Origin: Acidobacteriota bacterium
GTDB lineage: Bacteria; Acidobacteriota; Blastocatellia; Chloracidobacteriales; JADJPF01
Reading direction: 5' to 3'
Length of the DNA stretch: 64,000 nt
NCBI GenBank assembly: GCA_016213785.1
Contig: JACQZQ010000025.1
Coordinates: forward strand, 1-64,000
In this document: in pieces, positions 22,472 through 45,867 of the stretch
Layout of the letters: each line of letters begins with the position of its first letter
Position numbering within the stretch: position 1 is the first letter of the stretch
Made by a program: the position numbers and the translations under genes
The notes under the pieces: generated by a model
The model's input: the letters and a program-made list of their open reading frames with translations, nothing else
Told to the model about the DNA's origin: nothing
Databases searched by the model: none

Positions 22472-22846
22472 CTAATCATTATCCTTAGGTTTAAGTGGTT
22501 GAGAAATAATTAAAAAGTCCTCTACAGGTTTACCACCTATTAAGTGCTCTTGAATAATACGTTCTACTACTTCCTTAGTACAAGAATGATACCAAGTACC
22601 TTCTGGATAAACTACGGCAATAGGGCCTTGGTCACAAAGCTGTAAACAATTAGCCTTAGTGCGACAAACCCCACCCTCTCGGCTTAAATTTAGCTCTTTT
22701 AAGCGGTGTTTTAAGTATTCCCAAGCTTCTATCCCTACCTCCTTATCACAACATTTAGGTTTAGTCTGATCAGCACAAATAAAAATATGTCGTTTAGTTT
22801 TATCTATAGCTAGACTTTCTAGTTTTTTCTGTAGTTTTTCGCTCAT
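22472..22846 (-). CDS. Thioredoxin-like [2Fe-2S] ferredoxin (Shethna type)
   Basis: The 124-residue protein reads as a (2Fe-2S) thioredoxin-like ferredoxin: [15 protein letters not shown] gives Cys24, Cys32 and Cys33, and [23 protein letters not shown] gives Cys61, Cys67 and Cys71, followed by the typical TWYHSCT segment. Four of these would hold a [2Fe-2S] cluster. Such ferredoxins are electron carriers of broadly unknown partner. It converges with the selenoprotein peroxiredoxin and could take part in redox defence, but no direct link is visible. ATG 22846 begins a typical helical lead and has plausible length for the family. Confidence 0.88.
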
Positions 22847-22925: not shown

Positions 22926-25900
22926 ATGGCTAAAAACCCTTCAGAACCCAGCAAAGCGAAAATGTTACCTAGCCACGAAATTTATAATCGTGTTATTTGG
23001 GATAAACGCTTAAACCCAAATGCCTTTGTATTTGGGTACACAGATCGTTTATCTAGTACAGGAATAAAGCAAAAACCCCTTGTTGATTGGGATACTAACG
23101 GAGATATTCCTTGGCATCGTATTCGCTATATTCTTTGCAAAAATACTATTGTTTGGGATCGTGACCAACATATTGATAAATTCTCTTCTGGTGAACTGCC
23201 TAATGAAGCTTGGCAGTTAGAACAAAATTTAGTAACATTATCAGAATCAGAATCAGTAATTGCAATTTTTTCATCACAATCTATTTATCATCAGGATTTA
23301 ATGGGGTGGCAAGTCTATCATCAGGGAAAAGAAAATATCCTAATAGACAGTTTAAGTATAGTTACTTTTAATGTCTTATCTGATATGTATGAAGCAGATA
23401 AAATTTATACAAATGAAAGAATTCCTATAATTGTTGAGCATCTTAAAAATTCTTTAGCAGACATTATTATTTTACAAGAAGTTACAAAACCTTTATTTAA
23501 TCAGTTACTTAAAGAAGATTGGATAAAAGATTATTTTACTTCTGAAGCACCTGAAGCACCTTCACTAGCGCCTCAAAACCTAGTTATTTTCTCTAAATTC
23601 CCTTTTACATTGGTTGAGCATTGGCATTCGCCTCATAAGCGTAGTTTTGTAGCAAGTTGGCAAATTAATGATAATGCTCTACATTTAGCAGCAGTACATT
23701 TAATTAGTAATCGTGCTAATAAAGCTGAAGAAGTACGTGCTACACAAATAGCTACATTACTAAAATATTTAGCTACCCTAACAGGAGATTGTATAATTGC
23801 AGGAGATTTTAACGTAGCAGGTAATGAACATGATAGAGATTTTCTTGATAATGGGTTTGAAGATATTTGGAAAATACTAAAAGCTAAAGAAATAGGTTAC
23901 ACTTTTGACCCTGAACTTAACCCATTAGCTAAATTAATGAGCTTACAAGGAAAACAAGCTAGATTTGATAGGGTTTTACTTAGATCTAAAACTCATAATT
24001 GGCAAGCTAAAGAAATTGCTATATTTGCCTGTAAGCCTTTTAATAAAGAAAAAAATTTGTTTGCATCTGATCATTTTGCTCTTAAAACAGTTTTAAGAAA
24101 TACAAAAACAAATATGTTAGAAACAATTTCACCTATTTATCAAAGCGCTATTGTAATTATTCCACCTAAAGAACTTTGGCCTAATATTCAAGCGATTCGT
24201 AAGCTTTATGATAAAAAAATTGATCGCTGGATGCCTCATATTACTTTAATTTATGGATTTATCCCTGAAGAATATTTTCAACAAGCCTCTGAACTTATTT
24301 TACAGGCTTTAAGTAAGGTCAAACCCTTTACGATTACCTTAAATGGTTTTAAGACTTTTAGCCACCGCAAGAGTTCTACTGCTTGGCTTGAACCTCTTTC
24401 AAATCCTGAAAAAGCATTAGTAGAGCTACAAGCTACACTACAAAGCCTATTTCCTAAGTGTAATGAACAGAGTAATAAACCAAGCGGGTTTACACCACAT
24501 TTGAGCGTAGGTCAGTTTGAAAATCCTGCTTTAGCTCAAAAACTACTTCCTAGTTGGGAAAAAATAGAGTTTCAAGTAAATACAGTGGCTTTAATTAGTC
24601 GTCGTGGAGATCAACCTTTTGAAGTATGCTATAAAGTAGCACTAGGAAAAAATCTTAAGGTAGATAAAGCTATTGCTATTTCTAGCAATGGAAGAGAAAC
24701 TTTAGCCAACACTTTAGATAGGCTTTCACCTGCTATAACTAAAGAGCAAAAATCTAAACAAGAAGCTGTAATTTCAATAATTAAGCAAGCTTGTAAAGAA
24801 TCTTTAGGGCAAGAGGCTTCGCTGCACTTAATTGGCTCAACGCGCCTAGGAGTACAAAATCAAACTAGCGATTTAGATATAATATGTATTATTCCTGAGA
24901 CTTTAACAGGCCAAGAATTTCTTTCTAAAATAAAGGATCAATTATCGGGTTTTTACCAACAAGCACGAATTATTACTAATGCTCAAGTACCAATATTAAA
25001 GCTAAAAATCGATGATATCCTTATAGATTTACTCTATGTCCGTAGCAGCTTATTTCCTTTTTCAATTCCGTTAAACGCTTTATCACAAAGATATTTTGAC
25101 CAAACGAGTTGGCAAACTTTAGTAGGATGTTTAGAGGCAGATATTTTACTTGAAATAGTTAGCCTTTATGTTGAGCTTGAGGTATTTAGAATATTTTTAC
25201 GAGCTATTAGACTTTGGGCTAGGTCACGAGCTATTTTAGGAAATGCTTGGGGTTTTCCTGGGAGTTTTTCTTGGACAATTTTAGCTGCTTGGAGTTGTAA
25301 TAATTTAACTAACCCTAAGACCACTCCCGAAGAATTATTAGCTAACTTTTTTAATCGCGCTTCACAACACAATTGGAGTGAACCTATTGCATTAACTGAA
25401 TCTGCAAAAAAATACCATGTTAATTTGCCTAAAGATCGATTGCCAATTATTACATCTATTAAGCCTAATCAAAATAGTGCTAGAAATATTTCTCGCTCAA
25501 CTGCGGAAATAGTAAAACAGGAACTAGTTTTAGGGGCTAAGATTCTAGCTCAAATTCAAAAAGGGGAATTAGGCTGGGATAAGCTATTTGAAATACCTAA
25601 GCTAAATAGAAAGTCTCAGAAATTATTATTTATAAATATCATAGCTAAAAATACTAATGATCTAGAAAATAGTATTGGTTGGTTAGAAGGTCATATATTT
25701 GGCTTAATTATTAATTTAGAACAGCTTAATATAACTTTAAGACCTTGGCCTAAAGTCATAAAACAACAGACTTCAGGCCAAATAGCTTTAGAATTAAGTA
25801 CTAGTTTAGAAAAATCTGACCCTAAATTAAATGAAATTTTAGAATCATTTTCAAAAACTTTTTATACAGACCCAAGCTACTTAAAAGGAGTTAAGATTGA

Positions 25901-25937
25901 AATAGAGGTTTGTCTGGCAGAAGAAAAACCTCTCTAG
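22926..25937 (+). CDS. Four-domain RNA end-processing protein: MJ1316 - EEP - 2H phosphoesterase - poly(A) polymerase
   Basis: The 1003 residues hold four recognisable modules. (1) An MJ1316/DUF504 RNA-end domain, about 17-85 (NRVIWDKRLNPNAFVFGYTD, IPWHRIRYIL, VVWDR-like IVWDRD). (2) An endonuclease/exonuclease/phosphatase domain, about 145-390, with TFNVLSD, the catalytic Glu in IIILQEV, GDFNVAG and SDHFAL. (3) A 2H phosphoesterase (ligT/AKAP7-like), about 410-575, with paired PHITLIYG and PHLSVGQF. (4) A nucleotidyltransferase of the eukaryotic poly(A) polymerase kind, from about 610, with LIGSTRLG and SDLDI acidic motif, ILIDLLYV supplying a third acidic residue, and a C-terminal RNA-binding part (NSIGWLEGHIFGLI, ITLRPWPK). 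The set suggests trimming or healing of damaged or cyclic-phosphate RNA ends followed by nucleotide addition. An internal Met13 is a possible start; no clear ribosome site is seen. Confidence 0.88.
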   Translation: MAKNPSEPSKAKMLPSHEIYNRVIWDKRLNPNAFVFGYTDRLSSTGIKQKPLVDWDTNGDIPWHRIRYILCKNTIVWDRDQHIDKFSSGELPNEAWQLEQNLVTLSESESVIAIFSSQSIYHQDLMGWQVYHQGKENILIDSLSIVTFNVLSDMYEADKIYTNERIPIIVEHLKNSLADIIILQEVTKPLFNQLLKEDWIKDYFTSEAPEAPSLAPQNLVIFSKFPFTLVEHWHSPHKRSFVASWQINDNALHLAAVHLISNRANKAEEVRATQIATLLKYLATLTGDCIIAGDFNVAGNEHDRDFLDNGFEDIWKILKAKEIGYTFDPELNPLAKLMSLQGKQARFDRVLLRSKTHNWQAKEIAIFACKPFNKEKNLFASDHFALKTVLRNTKTNMLETISPIYQSAIVIIPPKELWPNIQAIRKLYDKKIDRWMPHITLIYGFIPEEYFQQASELILQALSKVKPFTITLNGFKTFSHRKSSTAWLEPLSNPEKALVELQATLQSLFPKCNEQSNKPSGFTPHLSVGQFENPALAQKLLPSWEKIEFQVNTVALISRRGDQPFEVCYKVALGKNLKVDKAIAISSNGRETLANTLDRLSPAITKEQKSKQEAVISIIKQACKESLGQEASLHLIGSTRLGVQNQTSDLDIICIIPETLTGQEFLSKIKDQLSGFYQQARIITNAQVPILKLKIDDILIDLLYVRSSLFPFSIPLNALSQRYFDQTSWQTLVGCLEADILLEIVSLYVELEVFRIFLRAIRLWARSRAILGNAWGFPGSFSWTILAAWSCNNLTNPKTTPEELLANFFNRASQHNWSEPIALTESAKKYHVNLPKDRLPIITSIKPNQNSARNISRSTAEIVKQELVLGAKILAQIQKGELGWDKLFEIPKLNRKSQKLLFINIIAKNTNDLENSIGWLEGHIFGLIINLEQLNITLRPWPKVIKQQTSGQIALELSTSLEKSDPKLNEILESFSKTFYTDPSYLKGVKIEIEVCLAEEKPL

Positions 25938-26316
25938 CAAGATCTGATTCTAATGTAGATTGATTGTAGTATTTATTAAGAACATTATTTTCTTTATCAA
26001 GTAAATCTTGGTTAGCATCTGCAAACTCTTCCCAAGATAATAGTTTACCGCTCTTATATAACCTTTCATTAATTAATAATATGTAAGCTAAAGTAATAGT
26101 TTCGTGGTAGAGGTTTTCTTTTCCAAGGCTACTAGCAAAATTTCTTAAGGCTTGGCTAAACTTTGCTATTGATTCTACTAAAGAATAATGCTGTAAGTAC
26201 CACCAAGCTACTTTTACATGCTCTTGATGATGAAAGGTTTCTGGTGACAAAATAGCTAGTTCAAAGTCTTTAACTAATTTATCAATACTAGATTTTGGGT
26301 TAAATTCTGGTTGCAT
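25891..26316 (-). CDS. Conserved hypothetical protein, 141 aa, with His-rich FHHQEHVKVAWW motif
   Basis: The protein has the segment SPETFHHQEHVKVAWWYLQHYS near residue 24-45, a pattern shared by a small uncharacterised bacterial family (His-x2-His-x3-Ala-Trp). It is helical after that. I do not know its function; the paired His residues could bind a metal. ATG 26316 is preferred because GGAGGA lies five bases upstream; a TTG 30 bases earlier lies in a terminator hairpin. The gene's 3' end overlaps the end of the RNA-processing gene by 47 bp in the opposite direction. A strong hairpin lies only 23 bases before the start codon, so expression may depend on readthrough. Confidence 0.72.
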   Translation of the reverse strand: MQPEFNPKSSIDKLVKDFELAILSPETFHHQEHVKVAWWYLQHYSLVESIAKFSQALRNFASSLGKENLYHETITLAYILLINERLYKSGKLLSWEEFADANQDLLDKENNVLNKYYNQSTLESDLAREVFLLPDKPLFQS

Positions 26317-26338
26317 AAAAATTCCTCCAAAAAGAAAA

Positions 26339-26367
26339 CCGCCCAAGTAAAAAATTTACTTGGGCGG
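26339..26367 (-). terminator. Strong 13-bp hairpin with T tract just upstream of the 141-aa gene
   Basis: CCGCCCAAGTAAA pairs perfectly with TTTACTTGGGCGG around an AAA loop. On the minus strand it is followed by TTTTCTTTTT, so it is an intrinsic terminator for the GAF gene at 26462. It ends 23 bp before the next start codon, so it also lies in the leader of that gene. Confidence 0.85.
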
Positions 26368-39855: not shown

Positions 39856-40702
39856 ACTTTATATCCGTAGAGAATTTTTTATAATCGCTATATTCTTGAA
39901 AAACACGATTAATAACTTTTTTCTCTTGAATCTCACTTGTAGCTTGTATAGGAAGTAAAAACGTATCTTCCCCTAATAAAACTGTACTATAATCAACAGA
40001 ATAAGTTATAGATTCAATATTTTTAGCTAGGTTTATTTCTTTATACTCAATACGTAAAGGGGCTAGAGTCTCTTTATCAATCCAAGCTTGACCTTCTTGT
40101 CTAGAAATAAGCCTTTTCCCTTCAAAAAAATAATATTGGCGCTCGCTTACTTTAGGGCGACTAACAAATTTAATTAAATAACTAGGTCGGTTTCGTAAGT
40201 TATGTATTTGACTATCTAGGCTAAAATTAAAATCATTTTGATCTAGCGAAGCAAAATGTGAGAGCAAAATAGAGCTAAAAACTCCGTCTACTTGTGGGCC
40301 ACGAGACTTAAATCTATCTACTTTAACGGTTTTTCCATTAATAGATTGTACTTGTCTAATTTCTTGAAAATCTAGCTGAGTACTACCTTTTTTAGTAATT
40401 TGGAGTTGTCTACCTGTAAGACGAGAAACCGTAATATTACGATCTAATAGTTTATTATCTTTTTTCTCTAGAGATTCTTGGGTTAAGGTTTCCGTAGTAA
40501 TAAAATCAGGTAGCGAGCGTTCAAAGTTATCAGCACGTGTAGCTAAAGAAACTAGAAGTGTTTCTAGCGTATCAGAATTTATAATAGGCTCTTGGGATAA
40601 AGAAAAAGAGCTTATTAGTAAAGAAATAATTAAAAAATAGAATATTTTTCTAAAAATTATTTTTAATTGGACTCTATAAAAACTCTTGGTAAGCGAAACC
40701 AA
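39848..40702 (-). CDS. Exported protein of unknown function
   Basis: The 284 residues begin with a basic stretch and a hydrophobic signal segment (IFYFLIISLLISSFSLSQEP). The rest is beta-rich and reads as an outer-membrane or periplasmic protein: LPDFITTETLTQESL, SSILLSHFASLDQNDF, RQYYFFEGKRLISRQEGQAWIDKETLAPLRIEYKE. The WIDKETLxPLRIEY segment resembles lipoprotein-carrier-like folds (LolA/LppX-type) but is not diagnostic. It overlaps the histidine kinase gene by about 40 bp and EamA by 8 bp, so it is part of one transcript. The start is a TTG by frame only; no better ATG precedes the signal segment. Confidence 0.65.
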   Translation of the reverse strand: MVSLTKSFYRVQLKIIFRKIFYFLIISLLISSFSLSQEPIINSDTLETLLVSLATRADNFERSLPDFITTETLTQESLEKKDNKLLDRNITVSRLTGRQLQITKKGSTQLDFQEIRQVQSINGKTVKVDRFKSRGPQVDGVFSSILLSHFASLDQNDFNFSLDSQIHNLRNRPSYLIKFVSRPKVSERQYYFFEGKRLISRQEGQAWIDKETLAPLRIEYKEINLAKNIESITYSVDYSTVLLGEDTFLLPIQATSEIQEKKVINRVFQEYSDYKKFSTDIKFE

Positions 40703-41775
40703 AATCTCGTCCCTCCTTCATTTCTAGGAGAATACCCTATTGTTCCTCCCCATTGTTCAACCATCATTCGACAAAAATAAAGCCCTAAGCCTGCTTTCCC
40801 TTTATATTTACCAGTTTGATAAAACTTTTGAAATAAGTTAGAAGCCATATCTTCAGTAATTCCTATTCCTTGATCATCAATAGTAATTAAGACATAAGCA
40901 TCTTCTATAGACAAGCTTATTGTTACAGTAGTGTTTCTAGGGCTATAACGCAAAGCATTTTCTAGCAAATTAGATAAGACTCTTTCTAAATGAGATGGTT
41001 CGCCTATAACTAACCAATTTTCTTGTAAGTTAATATTTGGGTTTAGCTCTATATGAACTTGTTTAAGCAAAAAAGCTGGAAGTAGGCTTTCCATAACTTT
41101 TTGAGCAGAAACTAATATACTAGGAGCATTACTAGGGCTGTTATTAGTATTTTTTAAGGCTGTAACCTCAGCAGCAAAAACATCTAAAATATCTCTTATT
41201 AATTTTTCTTGGCGTTCTACTTGAGTTAGACCTATTTCTACTAATTCTCTAGAATCTTCTGAAAGTTCTTCCAAACTAATTAATGATAATGCACCTTTAA
41301 TGCTTGTTAAAGGCGCATTTAAGTCATGAACAATACAATGAAGGAGTATTTCTTTTTTTTGAATTTCTTTAGAAAGTTGATAATACTTTAAGTTAATATC
41401 TCTTCCAGTTTGAATTAAATGGTGTTTTTCTTCATAAGAAATCCGTGAAAATTCTATTAAAAGTACTTTCTTTTTTTCTTTTTCTAAAAAAATTGCAATG
41501 GCTTCTAAATGATACTCTTTACCATTAGAGCTAGATTCAATCCAAAGCCCAGATTTTAAGTGACCTGTAGAAAATTTCTGCCAAAATTCTTCTGCATCAA
41601 TTAGAAAATTATCTAAAAAAGGTGAACACCCTATTAAACTTATAGATTCTTTATTAGAAAGAATATTAGGATAAATCTCTGGAAACCAACTAGGAGCAGC
41701 CCCTAATAACCTAAACTGCCCAACATCTAAGCGCTCTAAAGCTATTACATTTAGAGCTATTAGTATTTCTTCCAT
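40663..41775 (-). CDS. Sensor histidine kinase (soluble)
   Basis: The protein has an N-terminal PAS-like region and a HisKA-HATPase core: phosphoacceptor helix IVHDLNAPLTSIKGALSLI, N-box NLLENALRYSPRN, G1 DQGIGI and G2 GKAGLGLYFCR. No membrane segment is seen, so it senses an internal cue or a partner. No response regulator is adjacent. I choose ATG 41775, which lies just after the cyclase stop and has AAGGA upstream; an in-frame ATG at 41814 would overlap the cyclase. It may work with the cyclase and GTPase immediately upstream. Confidence 0.9.
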   Translation of the reverse strand: MEEILIALNVIALERLDVGQFRLLGAAPSWFPEIYPNILSNKESISLIGCSPFLDNFLIDAEEFWQKFSTGHLKSGLWIESSSNGKEYHLEAIAIFLEKEKKKVLLIEFSRISYEEKHHLIQTGRDINLKYYQLSKEIQKKEILLHCIVHDLNAPLTSIKGALSLISLEELSEDSRELVEIGLTQVERQEKLIRDILDVFAAEVTALKNTNNSPSNAPSILVSAQKVMESLLPAFLLKQVHIELNPNINLQENWLVIGEPSHLERVLSNLLENALRYSPRNTTVTISLSIEDAYVLITIDDQGIGITEDMASNLFQKFYQTGKYKGKAGLGLYFCRMMVEQWGGTIGYSPRNEGGTRFWFRLPRVFIESN

Positions 41776-41782
41776 AGTTTTT

Positions 41783-42826
41783 TCATCCTTGCCATAACCA
41801 ACGTTTATCTTCATATAGACTAGATAAGTAAGAAAAAGCTGTAATAGATTGATTATCTATTGTTAAAGTTTGTAAAGAGAATAATTCTTGCATTTCTGCT
41901 AGTTTATGAAAAGTGGTTTCATCTATTAAAATTTCCCGTGCTTGAGCTTGTTTCTCAAGTTGGGCAGCTAATTTTACCCCATCACCTAAAGCACCTAAAA
42001 ATTTCTGTTCTCTCCCATTAAGTAAACCAAGAGATATTGTTCCTGATGCAATACCAACAGCAAAATCAAAAATTAATAAATTATCAGACTGTCGCAAATT
42101 ATTTAATTCATCTACAGCATTAATAGCTCTTAAGACTGCCCTTAAAGCCATTTTTTGTGGAATTCCTGTAGAAGGAAGGATGCCAAAAATTGCCATAACA
42201 CCATCACCAATGATTTTATCTAGTAGTCCAGCCTCATCAATAATTGGGTCAATAATAGCTCGTAAGTATATATTAAGAAGGCTAAAGGTTTCTTCAGGAG
42301 AAGAGATTTTGCTATAGCTAGTAAATCCACGTAAGTCAATAAAAAGGATAACAACTTCACGTTGAGGGTCTAATTGGTTAAATATTTTTAATTCTTGAAT
42401 AGAAGAATCTGCTTCGCTACCTAGCATCATTCCAAGCATTCTTGCTTGTTTATCACGTAGAAGGCTTAGGTCATTTATTTTCTGTTGTATTATTTGCTGG
42501 TTTCGCTCCTGCTCAGCTACACTAAGCAGTATTACCCAAGTTTCTTTATTAGCAAAAGAAAAAATATGTAGATCAGCAGAAACATCAGTATCTAATTTTA
42601 ATTGAGGGAGTATTATTTTTTCTTCTGATAGGGGTAAAAGCCCAGAAAGAAAAGGCAATTTATCTTCAGCAAGTTCACCTACTTCTATTTCAGTAATTCC
42701 ATAAATTGACCAATCTCCACCAAGTAAAGAAATTATGCCTTGATCATCGATTCTTAAATAAGCTAAAGATCTTTCCTGTTCTACTAACTGGCTAATATAA
42801 TTTACAACCGTTTGGGGAAGCGCCAT
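41783..42826 (-). CDS. Class III adenylate/guanylate cyclase
   Basis: The 347-residue protein has an N-terminal sensor-like region (about 1-140) and a C-terminal class III nucleotide cyclase domain: VVILFIDLRGFTSYS (metal Asp), KIIGDGVMAIFG (second Asp of the GDG motif), and VGIASGTISLGLLNG (catalytic strand). It should form cAMP or cGMP; the substrate-specifying residues are not resolved here. There is no membrane segment. It follows the Ras-like GTPase by three bases and precedes the histidine kinase, so the three signalling genes are coexpressed. A GTPase next to a cyclase suggests that nucleotide state may regulate cyclic nucleotide production, but that is inference. Confidence 0.9.
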   Translation of the reverse strand: MALPQTVVNYISQLVEQERSLAYLRIDDQGIISLLGGDWSIYGITEIEVGELAEDKLPFLSGLLPLSEEKIILPQLKLDTDVSADLHIFSFANKETWVILLSVAEQERNQQIIQQKINDLSLLRDKQARMLGMMLGSEADSSIQELKIFNQLDPQREVVILFIDLRGFTSYSKISSPEETFSLLNIYLRAIIDPIIDEAGLLDKIIGDGVMAIFGILPSTGIPQKMALRAVLRAINAVDELNNLRQSDNLLIFDFAVGIASGTISLGLLNGREQKFLGALGDGVKLAAQLEKQAQAREILIDETTFHKLAEMQELFSLQTLTIDNQSITAFSYLSSLYEDKRWLWQG

Positions 42827-42829
42827 TAC

Positions 42830-43327
42830 CTAAGCTCCCATTATTTTTTGTGTTAAAGAAAGAAATAGCTCTTCTACTCCCTCACCTGTTTTAGCACTTC
42901 CTTTTATAATGCTCAAACCTTTATTAACAAGCTCTTCTACTGTATTACTATCTATTTCCCAATCATCTAAAAGATCTGATTTATTTAAGACTAATACACA
43001 AGGAATTTTTCCTATAGTTTCTTCAACATTTTTTTGTAGAGAAAAAGCTTTATCTAAAGTAGAACGCCTAGTGCCATCTACTACAAGAATATAACCTGCT
43101 GAGCCGCGTAAATAAGACATTTGGACTTTATTAAATTCATCTTCTCCTGCAAGATCCCAAAGCATTAACATCACATCTTGCTCATTAAATTTAAGAACTT
43201 TTTTATCTATTTTTACACCAACAGTAGTATGGTATTTATCTGAAAAGATGCTTTTAACAAAGCGAGCAACTAAGCTAGTTTTTCCTGTTGCAAAAGCGCC
43301 TAACATACATACTTTTTTTTGAATCAT
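42830..43327 (-). CDS. Ras-like small GTPase
   Basis: The 165-residue protein has the full set of Ras-superfamily motifs: G1 GAFATGKTSL near residue 10, G2 Thr in YHTTVGVKI, G3 WDLAGEDEF, G4 NKSD and G5 GSAKTGEG. The DxAGE form at G3 carries Glu where Ras has Gln, which may affect intrinsic hydrolysis. No lipidation or membrane segment is seen. Bacterial members of this group act as polarity or signalling switches with GAP-like partners. No GAP or roadblock (MglB-like) gene is evident here. It is in an operon with a coiled-coil protein, an OmpA-domain protein, a cyclase and a histidine kinase. Confidence 0.92.
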   Translation of the reverse strand: MIQKKVCMLGAFATGKTSLVARFVKSIFSDKYHTTVGVKIDKKVLKFNEQDVMLMLWDLAGEDEFNKVQMSYLRGSAGYILVVDGTRRSTLDKAFSLQKNVEETIGKIPCVLVLNKSDLLDDWEIDSNTVEELVNKGLSIIKGSAKTGEGVEELFLSLTQKIMGA

Positions 43328-43362
43328 TTATTTAAAACCTTTTTCGTTATTTCTTTCTTTAT

Positions 43363-45207
43363 TTATTTATTTTTAGTATCAGAATCTATCAAAGATATTC
43401 TAAAAGTAACTCGGCGACTAGTCTCATTATTTTGCGGTGAATTAATTTGATTTGTCAAAGCATTCCCGGTGCCAATACCCTTAGAAGTAAAGTATTTAGC
43501 GTTTAATCCCCTATCGATTAATATGGCTACTATCTTGTCGGCTCTTTCTTGACTTAAAATAGAATTTCTTTCTGTTGTTCCGCTAGAATCTGTTTGACCA
43601 AAAATTTCTATTTGGACTTTTTTATTTAATAAATCTGCTGTTTGTGTAAATTTCTGTAAAGCTTCAAATATTTTGTTCAAATTCTTTTCCTGACCAGCAA
43701 CAAAATCTGTTTTATCATTAATAAATAGTAATGTTTCTTTTTCTATTAATTTTTTATTTTCTTCTAATTCTTTAAGATCTAAATTAACTAATTTTTCTTC
43801 TTTAAACGAATTAATTCCTAAAATTAAACGCGAGTATTTTTTAGCATCTTTAATCCATCCATTAGAAGCCGAACCACTAGCAAAAAGCGTATCTCCTTCT
43901 AATCTTAGAATTACTGTTTCTGGTGGTTGAAGGAAAGTTTTTGCTCTAGCCAAAACAAATTTAGGTTTAATTGCTTGATAAGGTTCCCAGCGGCTAATTA
44001 CTTTATTTTCATTTAGCCCTGCTTCTTTACGCAATTCTTCAGGATCTTTTGCCAATGGGTCATGCAGCCCTGAAACAAAATATTTTCCACCTTCTTTATC
44101 TATTCTAGTAATAGCTATTCCAGGTTCATTATTAAGAAGGGTTAAATAGTTTTGCCAATGCCAATAATGCCATAAAGAGTAGCTAAGCCAAGATAAAAGC
44201 AAAAAACCTAAAATACCAGTAGCCAATAAAAGAGCAGGTGCTGTTTTTTGTTCTTGATTTTTAATCTCATATTGAGATTGCAAACAGACTTCTAGTAAAG
44301 GTCTAATATTTTCAAATACACTAGCATCACCTTGAAAAGTTGTTAGTTCTTTTTTAGTTTCTAGATGTATTTTTTCTAGAGTTTCTTGAAAAATAGGTCT
44401 TAGCTCTTTTGGTGCAGTGCCTCGTAAAACACCAGCTAAAAAAGCTTGTGGGCCTTGTTCTATCCAAACAGTTAATTCTCCTACTTGTAATTCTTCTAAA
44501 GATTCATTTTTTACTCCAAAAGAATCTCTAACAAAATCTTGTATAGCAGTAAACATACCTGAAACCATATCAGCATCTTGTATTTCATTGCCTTTACCAA
44601 GTAAAGCAGGGGAAATTAAATGTTGAAGTAAAAGCCCTGTTTCTTTATGTACTAAAAAAATCTGTTCAACGCGATAAAGTAAGGTATTTAGCATTACTAT
44701 TTCAGCAAAAGAGCGTCCTGTACGAATAGACTCTAGTCGCCATTTTAGCCCCTGAATTGAAAGACTATTTTCCATTGTTTGATTAAGGGTTTGCACCATT
44801 GAACTAAGAGCTTGGGCAATTGCTCTACGAATTGCAGGCCCCATTACAGGAAAAAGTGCTTCAACCAAAGTACTTGGGTCTTTTTTAACAGATATTTTTA
44901 TTGCTTTTTCTACAGTAGGTTGTAAGACTTCGGTTAAACCATTATCTTGCTCTAAGCTTAAGTTAATAGCTCTAGGCAAAATTTTGCTAGTTTCTTGTGC
45001 ATAAATCTCTGGATTATCTAATCTTTCTTTTAGGTTAGAGAGGTCTTTTTGTTCAGGGGCTAAAATTAAAGACCGAAGTTCTTTCATCAACTCTTGTTGA
45101 TCTTCGCTGCTACCTTCAGTAGTTTCATTAGTTTTTTTTATAGTATTCATACTTTTAGGGCTGACCATTTCTTTAGTCAGCCCTTTTGAGTCTATTGGTA
45201 AAGACAT
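43363..45207 (-). CDS. Membrane protein with C-terminal OmpA/peptidoglycan-binding domain
   Basis: The 614 residues have a long helical N-terminal half (about 35-330), one membrane segment (LLLATGILGFLLLSWLSYSLW, about 325-345), a middle periplasmic beta-rich part with BON-like repeats (VILRLEGDTLFASGSASNGWI), and a C-terminal OmpA domain (about 510-605) containing EIFGQTDSSGTTERNSILSQ and RADKIVAILI. OmpA domains bind peptidoglycan. The protein should tie a cytoplasmic signalling assembly to the cell wall. It lies between the coiled-coil gene (33 bp) and the small GTPase (35 bp). The cytoplasmic half contains a conserved LxxLLQxLIxPALLGK-type region that could bind the GTPase. Confidence 0.85.
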   Translation of the reverse strand: MSLPIDSKGLTKEMVSPKSMNTIKKTNETTEGSSEDQQELMKELRSLILAPEQKDLSNLKERLDNPEIYAQETSKILPRAINLSLEQDNGLTEVLQPTVEKAIKISVKKDPSTLVEALFPVMGPAIRRAIAQALSSMVQTLNQTMENSLSIQGLKWRLESIRTGRSFAEIVMLNTLLYRVEQIFLVHKETGLLLQHLISPALLGKGNEIQDADMVSGMFTAIQDFVRDSFGVKNESLEELQVGELTVWIEQGPQAFLAGVLRGTAPKELRPIFQETLEKIHLETKKELTTFQGDASVFENIRPLLEVCLQSQYEIKNQEQKTAPALLLATGILGFLLLSWLSYSLWHYWHWQNYLTLLNNEPGIAITRIDKEGGKYFVSGLHDPLAKDPEELRKEAGLNENKVISRWEPYQAIKPKFVLARAKTFLQPPETVILRLEGDTLFASGSASNGWIKDAKKYSRLILGINSFKEEKLVNLDLKELEENKKLIEKETLLFINDKTDFVAGQEKNLNKIFEALQKFTQTADLLNKKVQIEIFGQTDSSGTTERNSILSQERADKIVAILIDRGLNAKYFTSKGIGTGNALTNQINSPQNNETSRRVTFRISLIDSDTKNK

Positions 45208-45240
45208 TGCTGTTTTAGACTACCCAAAATTATATTAAGT

Positions 45241-45867
45241 TTATTCATCTCCAGGAATCTTAAACTCGTTATTTAAGCGCATTGCAACTTCGGTAAATAA
45301 TGCTGCTAATGTTGTGCGATCGGTTTTATCAACTCTTAATTCTTCGGTTTCTCTACTAATTAAGCTAAGTAATTCATCGTATTTTTGGCGAATTTCATCA
45401 GCTAATTGTCTAGACTTATCTGAAAGTTGTTGATTAAGATCTCGTTGAGTTTTTATTAAATTATCATCTAGATGAGTAAGCTTTTTTTCTAGCAAACGAG
45501 AAGTATCTTTTAACTCTCGTGACATCTCTCTATCTGCATCAGCACGTTCTCTTTCCTCAGTCTTAGCTCTATCAGCTAAAGCTTCTAACTCTTTCTTAAT
45601 ATAAGTTTCTAGCATATCAAAACGTTTTCTTAAATCTTCTTTAATTTCAGAAGTTTCTTTTACAAGCCGTTCTTCTAGTCTAGTTAGTCGTTTTTCATAG
45701 CTACGAATTTGTGAACCAAAAAGAATTTCTCTTACTTTATCAAGATTACCTCCAGATAAATCACTACCAGAAAAAGCCTGTTTATTGCTATCTTCTACTG
45801 CCACAAGCTTAGTACTAGTATCTGTTAAAGCAGGCATAATCTTTTTTTTCTCTTCTGGCATACCCAT
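45241..45867 (-). CDS. Coiled-coil protein, first gene of the GTPase operon
   Basis: The 208-residue protein is almost entirely helical with heptad-like leucines and many Glu, Arg and Asp residues (KLTHLDDNLIKTQRDLNQQL, then SRQLADEIRQKYDELLSLI). The N-terminus contains IREILFGSQI-like segment VREILFGSQIRSYEKRLTRL, after which the coiled coil begins. No enzymatic motif is present. It likely oligomerises and acts as a scaffold for the operon products. The ATG at 45867 starts a short leader before the coiled coil. A promoter should lie in the 45868-46070 gap, which is shared with the divergent alaX-type gene. Confidence 0.78.
   Translation of the reverse strand: MGMPEEKKKIMPALTDTSTKLVAVEDSNKQAFSGSDLSGGNLDKVREILFGSQIRSYEKRLTRLEERLVKETSEIKEDLRKRFDMLETYIKKELEALADRAKTEERERADADREMSRELKDTSRLLEKKLTHLDDNLIKTQRDLNQQLSDKSRQLADEIRQKYDELLSLISRETEELRVDKTDRTTLAALFTEVAMRLNNEFKIPGDE

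Follow-up and report, generated by a model that had tools for sequence, protein, structure and literature searches.

Which step of RNA metabolism could be served by a single bacterial protein that carries a predicted RNA-end domain, a nuclease, a phosphoesterase and a eukaryote-like poly(A) polymerase (PAP)? The question is raised by a gene in a 64,000-nucleotide stretch of an Acidobacteriota genome (contig JACQZQ010000025.1; this whole stretch is referred to here as the window, and the genome as G000). The open reading frame (22926..25937, forward strand) runs from ATG to stop and encodes 1003 amino acids in the order MJ1316 - EEP - 2H - poly(A) polymerase. The domains that follow all lie on the same strand, and every Pfam match exceeded its curated cut-off. 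An MJ1316/DUF504 domain (22962..23162, aa 13-79; PF04457, 5.2e-18, 65.9 bits against a cut-off of 26.3) is followed by a TDP2-like endonuclease/exonuclease/phosphatase (EEP) domain (23352..24098, about aa 143-391; PF03372, 4.2e-10, with the Exo_endo_phos match spanning aa 146-358), a 2H phosphoesterase domain (24162..24611, aa 413-562; PF13563, 9.9e-38), a poly(A) polymerase nucleotidyltransferase domain (24738..25052, about aa 605-709; PF22600, 6.8e-9, and PF20750, 1.6e-7) and a PAP central domain (25182..25592, aa 753-889; PF04928, 1.1e-27, 97.1 bits against a cut-off of 27.1). The four-domain composition given in the preliminary description was thus borne out by Pfam. Its RNA-binding tail was upheld for the beginning of the C-terminal part only (25593..25934, aa 890-1003): the start of this part corresponds to the PAP RNA-binding domain in an alignment to solved PAPs that reaches about aa 934, and in the C-terminus nothing matched the Pfam family for that domain.

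The gene appears to be a genuine bacterial one. Stops occur throughout the reverse strand over the open reading frame, and its GC3 of 0.183 is the same as that of the adjoining genes. Eukaryotic contamination was ruled out by these bacterial neighbors with matching GC3, and is also countered by homologs that occur elsewhere among bacteria, in genomes as well as on plasmids of differing GC. The MJ1316 match is the only one in the 6.4 Mb genome. A single-sequence AlphaFold model of the whole 1003-aa protein had a pLDDT of 35, and no reading given here is based on it. A divergent small gene about 80 nt upstream (22472-22846, reverse strand) was called ferredoxin-like (2Fe-2S) by eye and had no Pfam match at 0.001. 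A 151-aa open reading frame (25891-26346, reverse strand), which had no Pfam match, converges tail to tail with the four-domain gene and shares 47 nt with its 3' end. Further along the window, a Ras/Rab-like small GTPase with the P-loop GAFATGKTSLVARF was recognized by eye from the translation (42830-43327, reverse strand), inside a block of same-strand genes at 40663-45867.

To assess whether the three catalytic domains are intact, the motif residues were compared across 7 full-length homologs. In the EEP domain the motifs read N / QE / GDxN / SDH (N149, Q184-E185, G293-D294-F295-N296 and S381-D382-H383), and N149, E185, D294, N296, S381, D382 and H383 were invariant in all 7. Both histidines of the two HxT/S motifs of the 2H domain (H438-I-T440 and H525-L-S527) were likewise invariant, with variation confined to the T/S position: the third residue of the first motif is T in the three Acidobacteriota and N in the other 4 of the 7, and that of the second is S or T. 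The PAP residues G637-S638, D649, D651 and D701, which align to bovine PAP, were conserved in every homolog. An earlier claim that all key residues are present therefore stands, apart from the 2H T/S position.

Strong sequence matches of the PAP part were to canonical eukaryotic PAPs only (4lt6, 1f5a, 1fa0), at 1e-35 to 1e-29 when the window protein alone was the query and 2e-58 with a family profile. Judged by its GS and DxD motifs, third Asp and PAP_central domain, the poly(A) polymerase half is of the canonical eukaryote type. For the EEP domain the nearest PDB entry was TDP2 (1.7e-16, family profile); an assignment as a CCR4-type deadenylase was rejected, with CCR4 at 2.4e-4 and nocturnin at 2.3e-3. 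The proposal that the protein trims RNA ends is consequently an inference, as the nuclease resembles TDP2 and not the deadenylases. The function of MJ1316 is a prediction: going by the family name, the domain would bind RNA ends carrying a 2',3'-cyclic phosphate (PMC6514570).

Full-length homologs with the same domain order, which the preliminary description had proposed to look for, were recovered from two genomes of the same order as the window genome (G004, 43% identity, and G005, 36%), from Calothrix brevissima NIES-22, where the gene is on a conjugative plasmid (45%), and from three actinomycetes, namely Nonomuraea gerenzanensis and two strains of Embleya (26-29%); in the comparison of full-length homologs, identity to the window protein ranged over 27-46%. 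The order in question would be Chloracidobacteriales: G006-G008, which are close relatives, encode the FMO protein, as expected of Chloracidobacterium, and NCBI assigns this genus to Acidobacteriota, Blastocatellia, Chloracidobacteriales. For plasmid records, the search covered the plasmid only. Of the 396 genomes sampled from the phylum, 3 had PAP_central, and all three are four-domain carriers; it was in 0 of 14 control genomes, in agreement with the earlier remark that PAPs of the eukaryotic type are rare in bacteria. By these searches the four-domain family is rare and spread over three phyla. The Calothrix protein is as near to the window protein as are the window protein's own acidobacterial relatives, and the tree leaves the branching order of acidobacterial, Calothrix and actinomycete proteins unsettled; gene transfer between the carrier groups is therefore likely. 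A phage origin was ruled out, as the phages and viral contigs searched contained no four-domain homolog. The single-sequence search of genome contigs yielded a stand-alone archaeal 2H gene and nothing else.

Two further observations were made on plasmids. Streptomyces plasmids encode a short MJ1316 + 2H protein lacking EEP and PAP (L017, 4298-5161, and L018, 5992-6900), and these open reading frames have no entry in the plasmid gene tables. Two genes that resemble defense genes, one for a dynamin-like GTPase and one for a DEDDh exonuclease-AAA protein, lie beside the Calothrix homolog (L014, 10964-18216).

The gene neighborhoods in actinomycetes point to a pathway. In N. gerenzanensis and both Embleya strains the four-domain gene directly follows, with an overlap of 1-4 nt, a gene in which an ATP-dependent RNA ligase (PF09414, KLDG motif) and a P-loop kinase (AAA_33) are fused. 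With this ligase-kinase protein as query, a cassette was located in the window genome on a different contig (G000:C92), in which genes for a methyltransferase (51 bits, Methyltransf), a 267-aa RNA ligase with a KLDG motif (115 bits, RNA_ligase) and a 374-aa HD-Pnk, which joins an HD-like domain to a P-loop kinase (83 bits, AAA_33), overlap in an operon-like arrangement. The same three genes adjoin in G004 (at C107), and in G005 the ligase and HD-Pnk are on different contigs. Among the same 396 genomes, 4 had a close HD-Pnk homolog, and 3 of these 4 are the four-domain carriers. The four-domain gene itself is not part of a ligase/kinase operon in G000, G004 or G005, adjacency being confined to Nonomuraea and Embleya, and no conserved neighborhood was seen among the acidobacterial four-domain loci (window, G004 and G005). 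A second, distant RNA ligase-like open reading frame (258 aa, E 2.8e-6) was also noted in the window genome (G000:C112:5626-6012, L043).

The partner kinase offers a second clue. The HD-Pnks of the three acidobacterial carriers were aligned with 23 homologs from Acidobacteriota, Cyanobacteriota, Pseudomonadota, Actinomycetota and Deinococcota. The motif residues H, HD and H and two distal positions (D and R), taken here as essential on the basis of the family motif, were invariant in all 23 of these homologs, and the P-loop lysine of the kinase was kept in every aligned protein. In the carriers, EN replaces HD (G000), the first H is changed to Q, the second H to R and the distal R to C (G004), or the third H is changed to Q (G005). 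By alignment, the HD phosphoesterase half of the kinase has lost metal-site residues in all three acidobacterial carriers. The HD motif is likewise gone from the actinomycete fusion kinases encoded beside the four-domain gene.

HD residues were altered in 3 of 3 acidobacterial carriers and in 0 of the 9 Acidobacteriota among the 23 homologs that were searched and lacked the four-domain protein, for an exact p of 1/220 that assumes independent genomes (they are not fully so, and it carries no phylogenetic correction) and that comes from a comparison set up after the pattern had appeared in the first few genomes. Because different residues were lost in each carrier, the changes argue for separate inactivations of the HD site. 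In the kinase tree the three carriers did not form one supported clade, and a single clade was not rejected (AU p 0.21); all three belong to one order, and a common background may underlie the HD losses. Another His position was already changed across a wider clade to which G002, G012 and a Sphaerospermopsis plasmid belong, and none of these is a known carrier; the G002 and G012 assemblies are fragmented (83% and 90% complete), which makes the absence of the four-domain gene there uncertain. The HD-Pnk of the Sphaerospermopsis plasmid (L091, 4016-5137) is 54% identical to that of G002 and is another link between Nostocales plasmids and genes of the Chloracidobacteriales type.

On the strength of these features we favor, with moderate confidence, a role for the four-domain protein as a 3'-end healing and re-extension factor in a pathway for the repair of cut RNA. 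The intact motifs of all three catalytic domains across the 7 homologs speak for a healing role, and the actinomycete ligase-kinase operon together with the HD-site loss in carriers lend real support to a function in RNA repair. Because the HD half, which would be the 3' healer in relatives, has lost metal-site residues in the carriers, the four-domain protein probably replaces the HD phosphoesterase of HD-Pnk in the 3' healing of ends with a 2',3'-cyclic phosphate. Against such a replacement, the window genome also encodes a distant 447-aa HD + P-loop kinase paralog with an intact HD motif that could heal 3' ends (G000:C41, about 23229-24416, L034), with relatives in G001 and G002. Also against this reading, the four-domain gene stands alone in the window genome and not by a ligase.

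A further-reaching scheme can be put forward tentatively, namely a split bacterial pathway in which the four-domain protein has taken the place of the HD phosphoesterase and heals cyclic ends, its PAP domain rebuilds lost 3' nucleotides, and a separate kinase and ligase seal the break; we regard this full sequence of events as possible rather than likely. In the favored reading, the starting substrate would be the 2',3'-cyclic phosphate and 5'-OH ends that metal-independent RNases leave. The MJ1316 domain, going by its family name, might dock the cyclic end; the 2H domain, by comparison with LigT-type enzymes, could open the ring to a 2'-phosphate; the TDP2-like EEP domain may then remove the terminal phosphate or a phosphorylated nucleotide to leave a 3'-OH, an end that the PAP domain would re-extend by one or more AMP residues. 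Sealing would be the task of two other proteins, an ATP-dependent RNA ligase and a 5'-kinase of the PNK type, whose genes were seen in the sequence. The order of these steps, and the action of EEP on the 3' rather than the 5' end, are guesses. The preliminary description had seen a full repair or tailing route in this one chain; its repair role is retained here, whereas the complete route is not, as the chain has neither ligase nor 5'-kinase and both are encoded elsewhere.

In bacteria, polyadenylation promotes the decay of RNA. The same domains could accordingly serve RNA quality control, with 3' ends healed so that a tail added by the PAP domain feeds the RNA to exonucleases, and the pathway would end in decay and not in sealing. 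The retained DxD and third Asp of the PAP domain suit this reading, as does the lack of a ligase on the chain or adjoining the gene in the window genome, G004 and G005. It is harder to reconcile with the actinomycete operon that includes a ligase-kinase gene, with the presence of ligase and HD-Pnk in 3 of 3 acidobacterial carriers though these are rare in the phylum, and with the loss of the HD site from the carriers' HD-Pnks, and we consider it unlikely. Less likely again is a role at the other end of the molecule, where the EEP domain would strip a 5' adduct or cap-like group while the other domains act on the same molecule, possibly DNA too. This proposal draws on the proximity of the EEP domain to TDP2 and its distance from CCR4 and nocturnin (2e-4 to 2e-3); however, likeness to TDP2 is at the level of the superfamily and says little on substrate, and MJ1316, 2H and PAP are all modules of RNA 3' ends.

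Oligonucleotide signaling, in which the nucleotidyltransferase would make and 2H or EEP would degrade 2'-5' or cyclic oligoadenylates, seems very improbable. Enzymes of the 2H and EEP families include oligoadenylate phosphodiesterases, and matches to CBASS cyclases were obtained (NF041116, 19.6 bits; PADLOC cyclase, 18.4 bits). These are weak, however, given a CBASS cut-off of 200 bits, on which an identification as a CBASS oligonucleotide cyclase was rejected, and given 97 bits for PAP_central; no effector gene was recognized next to the homologs examined, and the partner in actinomycetes is a ligase.

If healing and re-extension is the correct reading, a eukaryote-type poly(A) polymerase would here have one of its rare uses in bacteria, the healing of RNA ends would be linked to the re-addition of nucleotides, and repair could restore the length of an RNA as well as its continuity. 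The occurrence of MJ1316 with three intact catalytic domains, in some hosts in an operon with a ligase/kinase gene, makes the prediction for MJ1316 testable, and the HD-site residues missing from the HD-Pnk of all three acidobacterial carriers hint specifically at which step the four-domain protein performs. Each of the domains, and the partner cassette, are of known kinds. In a survey of MJ1316 fusions, Burroughs and Aravind (2016, NAR 44:8525) reportedly may list a similar architecture, perhaps this one. No report of the bacterial four-domain family or of HD-site decay in its partner was found in the literature searched, which did not extend to that 2016 survey.

Comparison with known systems places the window protein among several partial counterparts. 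Diverse fusions of MJ1316 to RNA-repair domains are described in eukaryotic lineages (PMC6514570). The family of the window protein is alike in joining MJ1316 to such domains and differs in being bacterial and in having EEP, 2H and PAP on one chain. With the canonical eukaryotic PAPs (PAPOLA/PAPOLG and yeast Pap1) it shares the nucleotidyltransferase and central domains and the catalytic Asp triad, but here these are placed behind MJ1316-EEP-2H and no usual RNA-binding domain is recognized at the C-terminus. One known RNA repair system consists of a ligase, a PNK and a methyltransferase as separate proteins that repair ribotoxin-cleaved RNA (PMC4411300), and the G000:C92 cassette has the same kinds of part, its methyltransferase being a candidate Hen1 only. 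In that system the Pnkp1 phosphatase heals the 3' end, whereas in the window genome the HD site is degenerate and the four-domain PAP protein is present.

An HD-PNK/ligase repair operon is also known from Deinococcus (PMC1997131). The ligase half of the Embleya fusion is 59% identical to the RNA ligase family protein of D. radiodurans plasmid MP1, whose gene is two genes upstream of an HD-kinase, and this pair fits the published DRB0098-DRB0100 operon. Its HD + P-loop kinase architecture is that of the kinase in the window genome. The Deinococcus kinase, however, retains its HD motif, and the plasmids concerned lack a four-domain gene. In Nonomuraea and Embleya, by contrast, one gene encodes both ligase and kinase, no HD motif is left, and the four-domain gene comes directly after it.
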